Shown here piece after piece: positions 31,970 through 58,016 of a DNA stretch of 64,000 bases. Position 1 is the first letter of the stretch; every line of letters starts with the position of its first letter. A program made the position numbers and the translations under genes. This DNA comes from Actinopolymorpha pittospori (lineage in GTDB: Bacteria > Actinomycetota > Actinomycetes > Propionibacteriales > Actinopolymorphaceae): positions 4,836,001 through 4,900,000 of the forward strand of contig NZ_JADBEM010000001.1 in assembly GCF_014873875.1 (NCBI RefSeq), read 5' to 3'. Under the pieces are notes generated by a model. It searched no databases. It saw only the letters and a list, made by a program, of their open reading frames with translations, and was not told where the DNA came from.

Positions 31970-32340
31970 GGGGGTGATCGGTTTCGACTTCGGATGATCG
32001 CTTCAGGAGAAGCGGGCCGAGGACCCAGGGTTGTCTCGTTAACGATCCCTGGAAACCAATAAGTGCCGATTCCAAGCGCACTAACTTCGCTCTCGCCGCC
32101 TGAGGCGAGCTGACGAAGGGTCAGTCCGGGAGTGCCTTCGGCCCGGGTTCTGATCTCATCTAGAGGGCTTACCCGCACGGAGCGGCCACAGGGCCGTGCG
32201 GGAAAATCAACTGTGGCTGGGCCTGTCGGCGACTTGCCTGTATGAGCGCCGGGGCCGAGTAGAACGTCAAACAGGCTGCGCCCGGAGAAGCCCTGAAACA
32301 TCGACGAAGGACGCGGGTTCGATTCCCGCCACCTCCACCA
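31970..32340 (+). ncRNA. ssrA: tmRNA (transfer-messenger RNA)
   Basis: This 371-base RNA rescues stalled ribosomes with SmpB and tags the nascent chain for proteolysis. The 5' end GGGGGUG pairs with CACCUCC just before the encoded ACCA 3' end, forming the alanine-type acceptor stem. The T arm is GCGGG-UUCGAUU-CCCGC at the 3' end. The tag frame starts at GCC 32065 and reads ADSKRTNFALAA, ending at TGA 32101-32103. The C-terminal ALAA is the protease signal. The CCA end is encoded. A strong terminator follows within six bases. smpB lies about 27 kb upstream on the same strand. Confidence 0.97.
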
Positions 32341-51419: not shown

Positions 51420-51565
51420 GACACGACCCGGTCCCTGGGGCCCGGCGTCGGGACGAAGCTGGGTCCGCCCGTGCACCTCGCGGCACGTGCCGCTCGGGCG
51501 GCCGCGGGTGGCCGTGATGCGGACAGGACGCCACGCCGATCACCCGACCGGCTAGGGTCGCGGTG

Positions 51566-52840
51566 ATGCGCGCTTCCTCGCCGTCCCGCGAGATACGGCG
51601 GGCCCGCCTCGCGGTGGCCGTCACATTCCTCGTCCATGCGGCCATCTTCGCCACCTGGGCTCCTCGGATCCCCTCGATCAAGCAGGCCCTCGATCTCGAC
51701 ACGGGTTCCCTCGGCATCGCCCTCGGTGGCATGTCCGTCGGCCTGCTGATCGGCACCCGGCTGACCGGCCGGATGGAGAAGCGAGGTCGTACCGGGCTGG
51801 CCATGCGGATCATCGTTCCGCTGCAGGCGGTCGCGCTGCTCGGCCCGGCGTTCGCGACCAACCTGCTGACCCTGACCATCGCGCTCGCCGTCCTCGGCCT
51901 TCTCGGCGGCATGCTCGACGTCGCGATGAACGCGCACGCGGTCGCCGTCGAGCGTCTGTACGGCAGACCGATCATGTCCGGCTTCCACGGTCTGTGGAGC
52001 CTGGGTTCTATGGTGGGCTCGGCCGTGGCCGCCCTGGTCGCCCGGATGAGTGTCGACGTGCACGTGCACTTCGCGGTGGCCGGCTTCGTCTGCGCCGCCG
52101 CGAGCGCGCCGGTGCTCGCCTGGCTGCTCCGGCCCGAACGCGAGTCCGCCATCACCGGCCACCACGTGGAGACTCCGCACAGCGCGCGCCCGCCCGTCGG
52201 GCTGGCCATCGTGGTGGTGATGGCCGTGATGGGGTTCGGCTCGTTCCTGGGGGAGGGAGCGATCGCCGACTGGAGCGCGGTCTTCCTGAACGAGGACCGT
52301 GGTGCCTCCGTCGGCTTCGCGGCCCTCGGGTTGTCCGTCTTCTCCGGTGCCATGACGGCCTCCAGGCTGATCGCGGACCGCGTCGGAGCCCGGCTCGGTC
52401 CGGTCCTCGTCGCCCGTGCCGGCGCGGCGCTCGGCGTCCTCGGCTACCTCGTCTTCCTGCTGGTCCCGTCGCCCGGTCTGGCCCTGGTGGGCTTCGCCAT
52501 CGCGGGGTTCGGGATCGGGCCCGCCGTACCCGTCGTCTTCAGCGCAGCCGGCAACACCCGCACGGCCAACCGGGCGTCGGTTCTCGGGCCGGTCGTGTCG
52601 GCCGGCTATCTCGGCTCCGTGCTGGGACCGGTCGTGATCGGGGCCGTCGGCCACCAGGTCGGGCTCACCTGGGCTCTCGCCATTCCACTCGGATTCGTCG
52701 TGCTCATCTTCTTCACCGCCGGGCTGCTCGGCAGCGCGGCCGGTGGGGAGATCGAGGCGAACGTCACCGCCGGCGTCGGAGCGTCGGCCGGTTCCGCACC
52801 CAACGCCGGCGGGGGTCCCTCGTCGCGGTCGGAGCCGTAG
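51566..52840 (+). CDS. MFS transporter (sugar/fucose-permease-like group)
   Basis: This 12-segment MFS permease of about 424 residues has the phrases FLVHAAIFATWAPRIPSIKQAL and MAVMGFGSFLGEGAIADWSAVFL, typical of the YbjJ-like MFS group. It has a short Gly/Ala-rich C-terminal tail. The start could be GTG at 51563 or ATG at 51566. It converges on the SrmL-like gene with 61 bases between the stops; no strong terminator is visible. Confidence 0.87.
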   Translation: MRASSPSREIRRARLAVAVTFLVHAAIFATWAPRIPSIKQALDLDTGSLGIALGGMSVGLLIGTRLTGRMEKRGRTGLAMRIIVPLQAVALLGPAFATNLLTLTIALAVLGLLGGMLDVAMNAHAVAVERLYGRPIMSGFHGLWSLGSMVGSAVAALVARMSVDVHVHFAVAGFVCAAASAPVLAWLLRPERESAITGHHVETPHSARPPVGLAIVVVMAVMGFGSFLGEGAIADWSAVFLNEDRGASVGFAALGLSVFSGAMTASRLIADRVGARLGPVLVARAGAALGVLGYLVFLLVPSPGLALVGFAIAGFGIGPAVPVVFSAAGNTRTANRASVLGPVVSAGYLGSVLGPVVIGAVGHQVGLTWALAIPLGFVVLIFFTAGLLGSAAGGEIEANVTAGVGASAGSAPNAGGGPSSRSEP

Positions 52841-52901: not shown

Positions 52902-54185
52902 TCAGGCGCGCGGTCGGTGTTCGCACGCGGCCCACTGCGCCGCGGCGCCCTCGTGCAGCGCGGCGTACACGTCGTCGCGCAACCGGTTGGCGTCGGCGTC
53001 GGTGAGCGTGCGGTCGAGCGCCCGCAGCAGCAACCGGACCAGCACGTTGCGTTGTCCCGGCGCGATCCCGAGGCGGGCCCGCGCGCTGTCGGGCAGGTCG
53101 TCGTACGCCGTCTCGCTCAACACCTCAACGGTCTCCGCGACGTCGGCGTCCTCACCCAGCGCCGCCCGTACGCGGTCGCCGAGCACCTCGGCGGAGGTGT
53201 CCGCCCGGGGGCCGACGACCACCGACAGGTCCCGTCGTACCGGTGGCATGTGCGACACCGCGCGGTACGGCGTCCGGTCCAGCATCTGGGTGGCGACCCG
53301 CGGATCCGCCGACCGCAACAGCCGGATGTCGGGGATCCCCTTGCCCAGCATGAGCAACCGGTCCAGGCCGAGCCCCATCGCGAGCCCGGTCCAGGCGGGC
53401 ACCGGAAGCCCGGCACCGGCGAGGACGTCCGGCGCGGCGAGTCCGCACTCGCCGATCTCGATCCACTGGCCGTCCCACCACACGTCGACCTGGCGGCCTC
53501 GTTCGGTGTAGGGGTGGACCTTCGGTTCGGTCCGCCACCGGCTGCCGGGCAGGGCCGACTCGACGACGAGCGCGATCATCTCGGTGAGGTCGTCCTCGTC
53601 GCAGGGCCGGTCGTGCCGGAGTCGCCACAGGTCCATCTGGTGCGGCGTACCCGTGTGCTGCCAGTCGACGCTGTCGCGCCGGTAACAGATGCCGGGACAG
53701 GCGAGGAGCAGGTCGGCCGGTGCGTCCGGGTCACCCGCCAGCGCTCGGAGCGCGCCCGGAACCATCGCGCTGCTGTGGCTGCGCAGCACGTGCCCGGCGT
53801 CGACGTAGCGCGTGTAGCGCTCCTCCCGGGTCACCGCTCCGGGTGGGTAGCCCAGGTTGTCGTAGTTGTCGGCGAGCGGAACGACGGGATGGGCCCGGAC
53901 GATGCGCACACCACAGTTCCACGCGGTACGCAGCCCCTGGACCAGGTCGTCGACCACGGACTGCAGGGCGTGCGGCCCCTGCGCCGGATCGGCGAGGTCC
54001 CGGACCGCGAGACAGGCCTGTGCCTCGGCGGCCGACAGGGCCACGGGTGGGCGTTCGTCGCGTTCGTCCACCACATGGGCGGGGGAGGGCGTGGTCGGGG
54101 TCGGACCGTGCCCGGTCGGGGCAGCGTGCTGGGCCGCGGCAGCGGTGTGCGGGGTCGGGGCAGGAGGGTGCAGAGGGTTGGACAT
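52902..54185 (-). CDS. PheS-related ligase-like protein (SrmL type) with FDX-ACB domain
   Basis: The 427-residue protein is a class II aminoacyl-tRNA-synthetase paralogue. The motif 2 region GICYRRDSVDWQH is at 166-178 and motif 3 GLGLDRLLML at 271-280, followed by the PheS-like GKGIPDIR (281-288). HTGTPHQMDL and LRSHSSA also match PheS. A C-terminal domain (about 313-412, MPPVRRDLSVVV to VYAALHEG) is the FDX-ACB fold normally found at the end of PheT or in monomeric mitochondrial PheRS. The tRNA-binding coiled coil of PheS is missing; the first 45 residues are low complexity. It is therefore probably not the housekeeping enzyme. A relative, SrmL, is named from the spiramycin cluster. ATG at 54183-54185 has GAGGAG. 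Confidence 0.87.
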   Translation of the reverse strand: MSNPLHPPAPTPHTAAAAQHAAPTGHGPTPTTPSPAHVVDERDERPPVALSAAEAQACLAVRDLADPAQGPHALQSVVDDLVQGLRTAWNCGVRIVRAHPVVPLADNYDNLGYPPGAVTREERYTRYVDAGHVLRSHSSAMVPGALRALAGDPDAPADLLLACPGICYRRDSVDWQHTGTPHQMDLWRLRHDRPCDEDDLTEMIALVVESALPGSRWRTEPKVHPYTERGRQVDVWWDGQWIEIGECGLAAPDVLAGAGLPVPAWTGLAMGLGLDRLLMLGKGIPDIRLLRSADPRVATQMLDRTPYRAVSHMPPVRRDLSVVVGPRADTSAEVLGDRVRAALGEDADVAETVEVLSETAYDDLPDSARARLGIAPGQRNVLVRLLLRALDRTLTDADANRLRDDVYAALHEGAAAQWAACEHRPRA

Positions 54186-54575
54186 CGAGGTCTCCTCGCG
54201 CGGGTTGGCTGCGGAAGGTGCGGAAGGACTCACACACCCCGACCGGCCGCGGAGGTCCGCACGGGAGAACGCCGTCAGCGCTCGACGGTGACGATCAGGT
54301 TCGCGGAAGGGAACCGGTCACCACGGGCATACGCGGCAATCCACCCCGACGGCACCGCTGTGCCGGTCGGGGCGACGAAATCGCCGTACGTACATACCCA
54401 CGGACGCAACGGTACGGCCTTCTCACCACCCACCGCCACTCCCGGCGGGGGTCGCCTCCTCCTCAGGACGGACACCGAGGCGCCAGAAAACCCACCCATG
54501 GGGCGACACCTCGCGAGACGTGGACCCCGTACGGTGAGCATCGTCAATCAGTCCCTTGCGTCCAGGGAGGCACCG
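54186..54575. other. Divergent promoter region of srmL-like gene and ABC transporter
   Basis: About 390 bases without a firmly supported gene. A minus-strand frame at 54275-54547 (90 codons, ending SANLIVTVER) is open but has no ribosome site and I could not place it in a family. No T-box, riboswitch or operator was recognised. AGGGAGG before the ABC ATPase start lies at the right end. Confidence 0.4.
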
Positions 54576-55736
54576 GTGGGACGGATCGAGGCGACCAACC
54601 TCTCCAAGACCTACGGCGCGAAACGAGCGGTCGACGATCTGTCGTTCACCGTCGAGCCGGGGGTGGTGACGGGGTTCCTCGGCCCGAACGGCGCGGGCAA
54701 GTCGACGACCATGCGGCTGATGCTCGGCCTCGACCACGGCGGCGGCCGCACCCTCTTCGACGGCAAGCCCTACTCGCGGCTCACCCACCCGATGCGGCAT
54801 GTCGGTGCGGTCCTCGAGGCCAAGGCGTTCCATCCGACCCGGACCGCCCGCAACCATCTGCTGATGCTCGCGGCCGCCAACGGCATCCCTCGGCAGCGCG
54901 TCGACGAGGTGCTCGAGTACGTCGGACTCAGCGATGTCGCCGGCAAGAAGCCGCGGACGTTCTCCCTCGGTATGGGGCAGCGGCTCGGGCTCGCCTGTGC
55001 GCTCCTCGGAGATCCGCACACGCTGATCCTCGACGAGCCCGCGAACGGTCTCGACCCCCAGGGCATCACCTGGCTGCGTAACTTCCTGAAGACCTACGCC
55101 TCCACCGGCAAGACGGTCTTCGTCTCGAGTCACCTGTTGGCCGAGATGGGGCTGATGGCCGACCGGCTGGTCGTCATCGGTCGCGGCCGGCTGATCGCCT
55201 CCGGCGCCGTCGACGACTTCGTCCGGTCGGCGTCGCGGACGACCGTGACGGTGCGAACGCCGCAGCCCGACCGGCTGGTCGAGGCCCTCCGGGCGGCCCA
55301 TGCCGGCGTCCAGCCGGCACCCGACGGTGCCCTCATGGTCACCGGCCCCGACCAGGCGAAGGTCGGCGAACTCGCGTTCTCCGCGGGCGTCGTCCTCCAC
55401 GAACTCTCCACCCGGACAGCGACGCTGGAAGAGGCCTTCCTCGAGGCGACCGGTGGATCCGAGGAGTACATCGCCCAGATCGGTGGCCCACCCGGACCCC
55501 CAGGGGCGGCCGGCCAGTTCGGTGCACCCGGGCAGTTCGTCCCATCCGGTGGAGCGCCTGGGCAGTTCGGTCCGCCGGGTGGTCCGCCCGGTCAGTACGC
55601 CGCGCCGGGTCAGTACCCCCCGCCGGGCCAGTACGGCGCACCCGGTCAGCACGGCGCACCCGGTCAGCACGGCGCACCCGGTCAGCACCAGGGCCCCCCG
55701 CCCGCTTCCTCGTCATCCGCCGGAGGCAACCGATGA
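54576..55736 (+). CDS. ABC transporter ATPase with collagen-like C-terminal tail
   Basis: The 386-residue protein is an exporter-type ATPase of the DrrA/bacitracin (BcrA) group: Walker A GPNGAGKST, FSLGMGQRLGLACALLGDP in place of LSGGQ, then LDEPANGLDPQG. A C-terminal about 75 residues after EEYIAQIGG is made of Gly-Pro-Pro-Gly, GQF, GQY and GAPGQH units, collagen-like and unrelated to known ATPase parts. GTG at 54576 follows AGGGAGG. The permease gene overlaps the stop (ATGA). Export or self-protection is likely. Confidence 0.9.
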   Translation: MGRIEATNLSKTYGAKRAVDDLSFTVEPGVVTGFLGPNGAGKSTTMRLMLGLDHGGGRTLFDGKPYSRLTHPMRHVGAVLEAKAFHPTRTARNHLLMLAAANGIPRQRVDEVLEYVGLSDVAGKKPRTFSLGMGQRLGLACALLGDPHTLILDEPANGLDPQGITWLRNFLKTYASTGKTVFVSSHLLAEMGLMADRLVVIGRGRLIASGAVDDFVRSASRTTVTVRTPQPDRLVEALRAAHAGVQPAPDGALMVTGPDQAKVGELAFSAGVVLHELSTRTATLEEAFLEATGGSEEYIAQIGGPPGPPGAAGQFGAPGQFVPSGGAPGQFGPPGGPPGQYAAPGQYPPPGQYGAPGQHGAPGQHGAPGQHQGPPPASSSSAGGNR

Positions 55737-56524
55737 TCGACGCACTGCGCTTCGAATGGGTGCGGATCCGCACGCTGCGTTCGACCTACTGGCTCACCGT
55801 GCTGCCGCTCGTCCTCAGTGGGGCGGTCGCCGGGATCATCTCCTACGTCTCCCGTAACGATCCGATCCAGCCCGACCTGGCCGGCGTGGTCCTCACCGGT
55901 GGCTCGGCGTTCAGTCCGCTGCCGTTCACCGCCGTCTTCATGGGGATCATGGGCGTCTTCGCGTTCGGGCACGAGTACCGCCACGGGACGATCCTGCCCA
56001 CCCTGACCGCGGTGCCGAAGCGCGGTTCCCTGGTTTTCGCCAAGGCGCTCGTGATCGCCGTGTGGGCGCTGGTCCTCGCGGTCGTGAGCGTGCTGATCAA
56101 CTGGGGCCTGGCGAAGCTGCTGTCCGGCGACTCGCTGCCGATCACCTCCGACCAGATGGGCCCGGCGCTGCTGGGCTACCTCGGCTTCGTCGTCCTGTGG
56201 GGACTGCTCGGCCTCGGCCTGGGTTCGCTGTTGCGCAACCTTCCGGCCGCGATGGTGCTGCTGTTCGTCGTGCCCCTGGTGGTCGAGCCCCTGCTCGGCG
56301 CGCTGACGATGATCCCCGCGCTCGAGTCGCTCCGTGAGTACGTCAACTACCTGCCGTTCACGGCTGGTAACGCGATGTCGCAGACGGTGTCGACGGAGGC
56401 GGTGGCCCCGGGTGCGTCGTTCGGGGACCAACCGAGCCGGGCCGTGAGCAGCCTGACCTTCACCGCCTGGGTGGCCGCGTTGTTCGCCCTGGCGACCACG
56501 CTCTTCCACAAGCGCGACGCCTGA
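55733..56524 (+). CDS. ABC transporter permease (ABC-2 type)
   Basis: The 263-residue protein has six membrane segments with a starting phrase LRFEWVRIRTLRSTYWLT and FGHEYRHGTILPTLTAVPKR, typical of ABC-2 exporter permeases paired with BcrA-like ATPases. The start overlaps the ATPase stop by four bases. It forms the membrane part of a small exporter and has no other gene in its operon. Confidence 0.9.
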   Translation: MIDALRFEWVRIRTLRSTYWLTVLPLVLSGAVAGIISYVSRNDPIQPDLAGVVLTGGSAFSPLPFTAVFMGIMGVFAFGHEYRHGTILPTLTAVPKRGSLVFAKALVIAVWALVLAVVSVLINWGLAKLLSGDSLPITSDQMGPALLGYLGFVVLWGLLGLGLGSLLRNLPAAMVLLFVVPLVVEPLLGALTMIPALESLREYVNYLPFTAGNAMSQTVSTEAVAPGASFGDQPSRAVSSLTFTAWVAALFALATTLFHKRDA

Positions 56525-56621
56525 CCGCACCCCGGCAGGGCCCCTCTCGCGCTTGGGTGTGGAACAGTGAGACGATCGGACCACATCTGGATATCGTTTG
56601 ACCTGATTCCAAGGAGTGGCC

Positions 56622-58016
56622 GTGACGTCGGCACCGAGCGTTTCGTACTCGATCACTGTGCGGCTCGAGGTGCCCGCGGGAGGCCGGGCGGTGAGCGAGC
56701 TCACCGCGGCTGTCGAACACGCCGGTGGCACTGTCACCGCGCTCGACGTGACCGCCTCGGGACACGAGCGGCTGCGCATCGACGTGACCTGTGCCGCCAC
56801 CGACACCGCGCATGCCGACCGGTTGGTGGAGGTGCTGCGGCAGGTCCCCGACGTCATCATCCACAAGGTCTCCGACCGCACGTTCCTCATGCACCTCGGC
56901 GGCAAGATCGAGATGCAGGCCAAGCACCCGATCCGCAACCGTGACGACCTGTCGATGATCTACACCCCGGGTGTCGCGCGGGTGTCGCTGGCGATCGCCG
57001 CCAACCCCGACGACGCGCGGCGGCTCACCATCAAGCGCAACAGCGTCGCCGTGGTGACAGACGGGTCCGCGGTCCTGGGGCTGGGCAACATCGGGCCGCA
57101 GGCGGCCCTGCCGGTCATGGAGGGCAAGGCGGCACTCTTCAAGCGGTTCGCCGGCATCGACGCCTGGCCGATCTGCCTCGACACCCAGGACGTCGACACC
57201 ATCGTCGAGGTCGTCCGCAGCATCGCCCCGGGGTTCGCCGGCATCAACCTCGAGGACATCTCCGCGCCACGCTGTTTCGAGGTCGAACGCCGACTGCGCG
57301 ACCTGCTCGACATCCCGGTCTTCCACGATGATCAGCACGGCACCGCGATCGTCGTCCTCGCCGCGCTCACCAACGCGCTCCGCATTGTCGGCAAGGACAT
57401 CGGGCACGTCCAGATCGTCATGTCGGGCGCCGGTGCCGCCGGCAGCGCGATCCTGCGTCTCATGCTCGCTGCCGGCGCCAAGGACGTCCTGGTCGCCGAC
57501 GTCGACGGCGTGATCCACCCCGAACGGCAGGGGCTTTCTCCCGAGCTCGCCTGGATCGCCGAACAGACCAACCACGCGCACTACACCGGCGACGTGCGCG
57601 GTGCGGTCGCCGGTGCCGACGTGTTCATCGGGGTGTCCGCGCCCAACGTCCTGACCGGCGCCGACATCGCGACCATGAATCCCGGATCGATCGTCTTCGC
57701 GCTCGCCAACCCCGAGCCCGAGGTCGACCCGGCGGAGGCCCGTGAGCACGCGAGCGTCGTCGCGACCGGACGCAGTGACTACCCCAACCAGATCAACAAC
57801 GTGCTCGCGTTCCCCGGCGTCTTCCGCGGTCTGCTCGACGCGCACAGCCATCACGTCGACGACAGCATGCTGCTGGCGGCGGCGCAGGCGATCGCCGACG
57901 TCGTGAGCGAGGGTGAGCTGAACGCCAACTACGTGATCCCCAGCGTCTTCCACCCCGACGTGCACAACGCCGTCGCCGCGGCGGTGCGGGAAGCGGTCTC
58001 GGCGGCCAGCGATTGA
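56622..58016 (+). CDS. NAD(P)-dependent malic enzyme with N-terminal ACT domain
   Basis: The 464-residue protein decarboxylates malate to pyruvate. An N-terminal ACT domain (about residues 5-85) precedes the malic enzyme body (LSMIYTPGVARVSLAI, DGSAVLGLGNIGPQAALPVMEGKA, FHDDQHGTA and the NAD-site MSGAGAAGSAI). The short bacterial form without the PTA-like domain is seen. The ACT domain suggests amino-acid or other small-ligand control. I chose GTG at 56622, six bases after AAGGAG, because a GTG at 56616 overlaps that site. VanZ follows with overlapping stop and start. Confidence 0.92.
   Translation: MTSAPSVSYSITVRLEVPAGGRAVSELTAAVEHAGGTVTALDVTASGHERLRIDVTCAATDTAHADRLVEVLRQVPDVIIHKVSDRTFLMHLGGKIEMQAKHPIRNRDDLSMIYTPGVARVSLAIAANPDDARRLTIKRNSVAVVTDGSAVLGLGNIGPQAALPVMEGKAALFKRFAGIDAWPICLDTQDVDTIVEVVRSIAPGFAGINLEDISAPRCFEVERRLRDLLDIPVFHDDQHGTAIVVLAALTNALRIVGKDIGHVQIVMSGAGAAGSAILRLMLAAGAKDVLVADVDGVIHPERQGLSPELAWIAEQTNHAHYTGDVRGAVAGADVFIGVSAPNVLTGADIATMNPGSIVFALANPEPEVDPAEAREHASVVATGRSDYPNQINNVLAFPGVFRGLLDAHSHHVDDSMLLAAAQAIADVVSEGELNANYVIPSVFHPDVHNAVAAAVREAVSAASD

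Follow-up and report, generated by a model that had tools for sequence, protein, structure and literature searches.

The SrmL gene of Actinopolymorpha pittospori lies on the reverse strand of a 64,000-nucleotide stretch of DNA, referred to here as the window. It is flanked by an MFS transporter and a divergent ABC exporter, just as the first-pass annotation of this DNA had described.

51563-52840, forward strand: MFS transporter, convergent with SrmL
52902-54185, reverse strand: SrmL gene, 427 aa, class II synthetase (start ATG at 54185, stop at 52902)
54192-54195, reverse strand: Shine-Dalgarno sequence of SrmL (GGAG)
about 54498-56524, forward strand: ABC ATPase and permease, divergent from SrmL

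The encoded protein is a member of the NCBIfam family NF051887, "PheS-related mystery ligase SrmL", a family without a stated activity, with a score of 518.6 bits (cut-off 300) and all model positions from 1 to 349 covered, which upholds its initial classification as a PheS-like ligase of the SrmL type. It falls below the cut-offs of the bacterial PheS model TIGR00468 (89.2 bits, cut-off 237) and the mitochondrial PheRS model TIGR00469 (119.9 bits, cut-off 258). A catalytic domain at approximately residues 72-300 (Pfam tRNA-synt_2d, 106 bits) is followed at approximately residues 311-415 by an FDX-ACB domain, which scores 27.3 bits, slightly below the Pfam cut-off of 31.1, and is confirmed by structure. 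The PheS coiled-coil domain is absent from the Pfam search of the protein, and on both of these points the domain content is as originally read. The ATP-site arginines of class II motifs 2 (R169/R170) and 3 (R276), motifs that had also been recognized at first pass, are invariant in 59 relatives, with no loss of the ATP site seen. Residues 1-47 of the window protein (54045-54185) form a Pro/Ala/Thr-rich N-terminal extension that is predicted to be disordered and does not occur in relatives from the genus.

Both the Pfam domains and the predicted structure place SrmL in the mitochondrial-type single-chain layout, in which the catalytic core is followed by the FDX-ACB domain. Mitochondria are known to have a single-chain PheRS; the bacterial enzyme is (alpha-beta)2 (PMC3275996). 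The AlphaFold model of the window protein, for which 59 sequences served as input, has a mean pLDDT of 88.5 and a pTM of 0.84. A comparison with mitochondrial PheRS had been suggested earlier, and the human mitochondrial enzyme accounts for all seven top PDB matches of the model, above any bacterial PheS; the top match spans the full length over 384 columns (TM 0.66/0.70, E 1e-26). Thus, the best structural match to SrmL is mitochondrial PheRS (FARS2, TIGR00469), which shares its single chain and domain order. In the tree, however, SrmL forms its own clade, with support of 100/99, apart from both bacterial PheS and mitochondrial-type PheRS.

The host genome also encodes a normal pair of PheRS genes at 6.594-6.598 Mb, consisting of pheS (start 6594339) and pheT (6595124-6597601). 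There is no pheT paired with SrmL; pheT adjoins the other pheS at 6.595 Mb. Since a standard pheST pair is present elsewhere, SrmL is not the housekeeping enzyme, a possibility that had been raised at the outset. In addition, pheT was found in 26 of 26 cellular SrmL genomes tested, which makes SrmL an additional copy. Every Actinopolymorpha genome searched (6/6) and every genome of the GTDB family (8/8) carries the gene. Within the order it was found in 49 of 198 genomes sampled, and 38 of these 49 belong to one genus with Kribbella-matching leader sequences; it is rare across the phylum (2/396 sampled genomes above cut-off). In total, 205 relatives were confirmed in genome contigs, including those of Amycolatopsis, Nocardia, Jiangella, Microbacterium, myxobacteria and a Marinagarivorans bin, and SrmL was also found in three plasmid records and five huge-phage genomes. 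SrmL occurs twice (L071:10001-11092 and L059) in a genome labelled "Streptomyces sp. SID13031", which resembles Kribbella in the sequence and synteny of SrmL; the second copy has no recognizable leader.

Gene clustering of 80 loci, with flanks of up to 10 kb, identified no neighbor common to different genera. The MFS and ABC neighbors are kept only within Actinopolymorpha (two loci examined, L050 and L051), and both are replaced in the Jiangellaceae and Kribbella loci; consequently, a reading of SrmL based on the transporters lacks comparative support. Malic enzyme is an older, longer-range neighbor that is common to Actinopolymorpha and Jiangellaceae. It lies at 56616-58016 in the window and near SrmL at L090, L102, L107, L108, L119, L120, L121 and L125, and this proximity is the sole inter-family synteny observed. 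Around bacterial SrmL genes, the search for tRNA genes turned up only a tRNA-Trp in Kribbella, at a distance of about 4-8 kb, and a handful of scattered others. A tmRNA gene with the tag ADSKRTNFALAA is located at 31970-32340 of the window.

Upstream of SrmL, the following elements were found on the reverse strand:

54409-54414, reverse strand: -10-like TACCGT, immediately before the uORF, from which the transcript is probably leaderless
54318-54401, reverse strand: leader uORF, from GTG 54401 or ATG 54395 to TGA 54318, peptide (MG)MYVRRFRRPDRHSGAVGVDCRVCPW then stop; conserved in 81/84 SrmL loci
54378-54380, reverse strand: putative regulatory Phe codon TTT, within CGATTT 54378-54383
54360-54377, reverse strand: segment 1 (CGTCGCCCCGACCGGCAC), just after TTT, partly covered if a ribosome stalls at TTT
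54342-54356, reverse strand: segment 2 (GGTGCCGTCGGGGTG), pairs with segment 1
54264-54269, reverse strand: proposed anti-Shine-Dalgarno core (TTCTCC), complementary to the SrmL Shine-Dalgarno
54235-54250, reverse strand: segment X (GCGGCCGGTCGGGGTG), distal, alternative partner of segment 1

In those 81 loci, which were found across genera by a search anchored on TT[TC], the short uORF that precedes SrmL has its Phe codon 3-10 codons from the start. Among 59 less redundant leaders, 57 have TTT at this codon and 2 have TTC, compared with 4.25% TTT in flanking genes; as the leaders are related by descent, these counts do not represent 59 independent events. The three T's of the codon are among the few invariant columns in a MAFFT alignment of 45 leaders. 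The residue preceding Phe is variable (R 45, L 6, W 5, S 2 and T 1 in the 59 leaders), and those after it fall in a C-rich helix arm. In 53 of the 59 leaders, against 3.8 expected, a TANNNT box lies at a distance of 3-17 nt upstream of the uORF start, the usual spacing being 6-9 nt. A Shine-Dalgarno sequence precedes SrmL in 56/59 and the uORF in only 2/59. The closeness of the -10-like box and the lack of a uORF Shine-Dalgarno in 57/59 suggest that the uORF is probably translated from a leaderless transcript.

Within the host genome, the leader is unique to SrmL. A pattern search found the motif once in the 10.56-Mb host genome, at SrmL. The covariance model R1 missed this leader, probably owing to its longer insert, and gave one match per genome in 10 of 29 related genomes, adjoining SrmL where both coordinates were compared. 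Rfam yielded nothing above the gathering threshold over the window leader, and nothing except a tRNA over six SrmL loci.

The leader RNA can form alternative helices. Because counting of MAFFT columns for the 1:X helix is blurred by register slips in G-runs, with only 2 pairs changed on both sides, pairing was evaluated by swapping partners between loci in 2000 permutations. For the 1:2, 1:X and anti-Shine-Dalgarno:Shine-Dalgarno pairings, each leader's own partners outpaired swapped ones (z of 7.1, 10.9 and 7.8, respectively; 0/2000 permutations each). The anti-Shine-Dalgarno core is well supported family-wide, with a weak z-score in the window copy alone, and some of the alternative covarying hairpins sequester the SrmL Shine-Dalgarno. 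The 2:3 pairing, which would free the Shine-Dalgarno and complete a classical switch, is weak (44/2000 permutations), and equilibrium folding of masked leader transcripts did not reproduce a clean on/off switch. In the gamma-proteobacterial leaders of Marinagarivorans and an Azotobacter plasmid, an intrinsic terminator with a T-run uses segment X as its 3' arm; the Marinagarivorans peptide is MISIRLVLSNLDNRFIGPRGKS then stop, with the terminator after it, and the Azotobacter leader is likewise arranged. By sequence, a Phe-codon leader ORF ahead of mutually exclusive helices has the appearance of a Phe attenuator.

The copies in huge phages also point to Phe. In the 634-kb phage LR745206, the leader peptide is MNTNTTFNFFFSHKMV then stop, in which FNFFF is encoded by TTT AAT TTC TTT TTT. 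A terminator follows, and its 5' arm (CTCAGAC) can pair with the region of the leader stop codon (GTCTGAG), as would be expected of a classical Phe attenuator. A leader was not evident in four of the five phage copies. On one phage contig (L157), a tRNA-Phe(gaa) gene stands on either side of SrmL, and on another (L155) a tRNA-Phe is located close upstream with one tRNA-Val between (permutation product about 0.005 for adjacency on the two contigs). A third contig (L156) carries SrmL after SerRS- and HisRS-like genes. Each of the five phages has 2-5 class II PF00587 matches, with SrmL the only strong match to PF01409, and pheT was not found in them.

Taken together, these observations make it likely that SrmL is an auxiliary single-chain PheRS of mitochondrial-type architecture, without a beta subunit, that lies behind a ribosome-mediated Phe attenuator. 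The first-pass annotation had left the acceptor open among a tRNA, a carrier protein and a small molecule. The leader and phage contexts clearly favor a tRNA, presumably tRNA-Phe. Given a leader with a near-invariant rare Phe codon, SrmL is probably a back-up enzyme that would be induced by a shortage of Phe-tRNA. In the proposed mechanism, the attenuator would keep SrmL expression off. When charged tRNA-Phe becomes scarce, a ribosome would pause at the leader UUU and cover segment 1, which supplies the 5' side of the leader hairpins, and the repressive pairing would be relieved. In actinobacteria this would free the SrmL Shine-Dalgarno, and in gamma-proteobacteria and the phage it would allow the terminator to be avoided; the SrmL that is made would then restore Phe-tRNA-Phe. 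The likeliest occasion would be inhibition of the normal PheRS, or its poisoning by a Phe analogue that is kept out of SrmL by the altered pocket, in which case SrmL may confer resistance to an inhibitor.

Examination of the Phe pocket, which had been proposed as a check, gave a divided answer. In E. coli PheRS, mutation of Ala294 or Thr251 enlarges the pocket; the counterparts of both are retained in SrmL, where the pocket keeps Ala269 (equivalent to Ala294), Thr227 and Gln183. The surrounding motifs, in contrast, differ from those of bacterial and mitochondrial PheRS, with FPFT replaced by HPYT, FHQxE by PHQxD and GCG by ECG. The changed residues H224, Y226, E246, D185 and P181 are invariant in SrmL relatives, and the invariant Glu at 246 is Gly in the aligned bacterial and mitochondrial PheRS. 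These differences are not decisive against Phe, since cytosolic eukaryotic PheRS also has both pocket Phe residues replaced (Asn410/Tyr412) and still uses Phe (PMC3275996). It is therefore plausible from the pocket residues that Phe is the amino acid of SrmL, with another also conceivable, and the altered pocket would likewise suit resistance to a Phe mimic.

An alternative possibility is that SrmL is regulated by Phe-tRNA and makes a different product, using an amino acid other than Phe or an acceptor other than tRNA-Phe, such as a small molecule or a protein. The invariant pocket changes would fit such an enzyme, as would the separation of SrmL from PheS and mitochondrial PheRS by both NCBIfam and the tree. 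Nevertheless, we consider this unlikely: the FDX-ACB anticodon-binding domain is kept, tRNA-Phe genes flank phage copies, no biosynthetic neighbors are conserved, and control through a Phe codon would be odd for a non-Phe enzyme.

Somewhat less likely still is antibiotic sensing, in which the leader would encode a drug-dependent arrest peptide like those of erm and cat, and SrmL would be a resistance or rescue factor against ribosome-targeting drugs. Sequestration of a Shine-Dalgarno is indeed reminiscent of the erm and cat translational attenuators, and two plasmids place SrmL among resistance genes. On the Glutamicibacter plasmid pGnB68, a Cmx/CmrA chloramphenicol exporter immediately precedes SrmL and its full leader (L133:14950-16068), in a region that also holds tet(33) and sul1, and on a Corynebacterium diphtheriae plasmid an incomplete SrmL consisting of the second half only (L134:8001-8645), at which the leader motif was not found, lies near erm(X) and tet(65). 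However, the leader peptide is unconserved save for Phe, as the preceding residue may be R, L, W, S or T and the following ones are set by the RNA helix, and conservation of the rare codon TTT is not needed for nascent-chain arrest. The FNFFF leader and terminator of the phage, and the homology of SrmL to PheRS, also argue for Phe-tRNA as the signal instead.

The more polar pocket makes it conceivable that tRNA-Phe is loaded with an amino acid other than Phe. UUU and UUC would then be reassigned conditionally and in a regulated manner upon Phe-tRNA shortage, in the cell or the phage, which we regard as very unlikely. The weakest case is that for a specialized-metabolite enzyme in an export or antibiotic cluster, as the first-pass annotation had suggested: the MFS and ABC neighbors are real and kept at two loci of the genus, but with no cross-genus neighbor, replacement of both in Jiangellaceae and Kribbella, the gene in every genus and family genome searched, malic enzyme as the conserved longer-range neighbor, and leader and phage contexts that point to tRNA-Phe charging, this reading is highly improbable.

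Attenuators that respond to Phe are familiar from the pheST and pheA leader peptides of E. coli, which combine Phe codons with alternative hairpins or a terminator, and the phage SrmL leader is of the same form. Classical attenuators have runs of regulatory codons. The bacterial SrmL leaders differ from those of E. coli in having a single Phe codon, nearly always TTT, in apparently being leaderless and in controlling an auxiliary enzyme made of one chain. An auxiliary, antibiotic-resistant TrpRS of Streptomyces coelicolor is reportedly under ribosome-mediated transcriptional attenuation, to go by the title of a report by Vecchione and Sello from 2010 (J Bacteriol 192:3565). Auxiliary TrpRS has a role in indolmycin self-resistance (PMC6804068). 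As a second, inducible aaRS in an actinomycete with ribosome-mediated attenuation, the S. coelicolor enzyme is the closest functional parallel to SrmL as proposed here, although it is a class I enzyme with transcriptional attenuation, whereas SrmL belongs to class II and is controlled through a Phe codon, apparently by Shine-Dalgarno sequestration in actinobacteria.

Our literature search found no paper describing the SrmL protein, nor any account of its apparent leader attenuator, of the tRNA-Phe genes around phage copies or of its broader host range. If confirmed, the auxiliary PheRS proposed here would give a function to NCBI's "mystery ligase", one that is testable through its single-codon leader, and would stand beside the inducible TrpRS of Streptomyces as its equivalent for Phe. 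A natural inhibitor of PheRS, or a toxic analogue of Phe, would then await discovery, and SrmL would deserve attention as a resistance determinant in connection with drugs directed at PheRS. Bacteria and huge phages carry a single-chain PheRS-like enzyme of their own, with a Phe-codon leader in many bacteria and one phage. Other huge-phage or viral contigs (91-536 kb) encode a mitochondrial-type single-chain PheRS with canonical FHQx[ED] and FPFT motifs (L148:3872-4939, L149:3863-4909 and L160:2965-3978); two of these score above the TIGR00469 pheS_mito cut-off, and in the tree they group with human mitochondrial PheRS.
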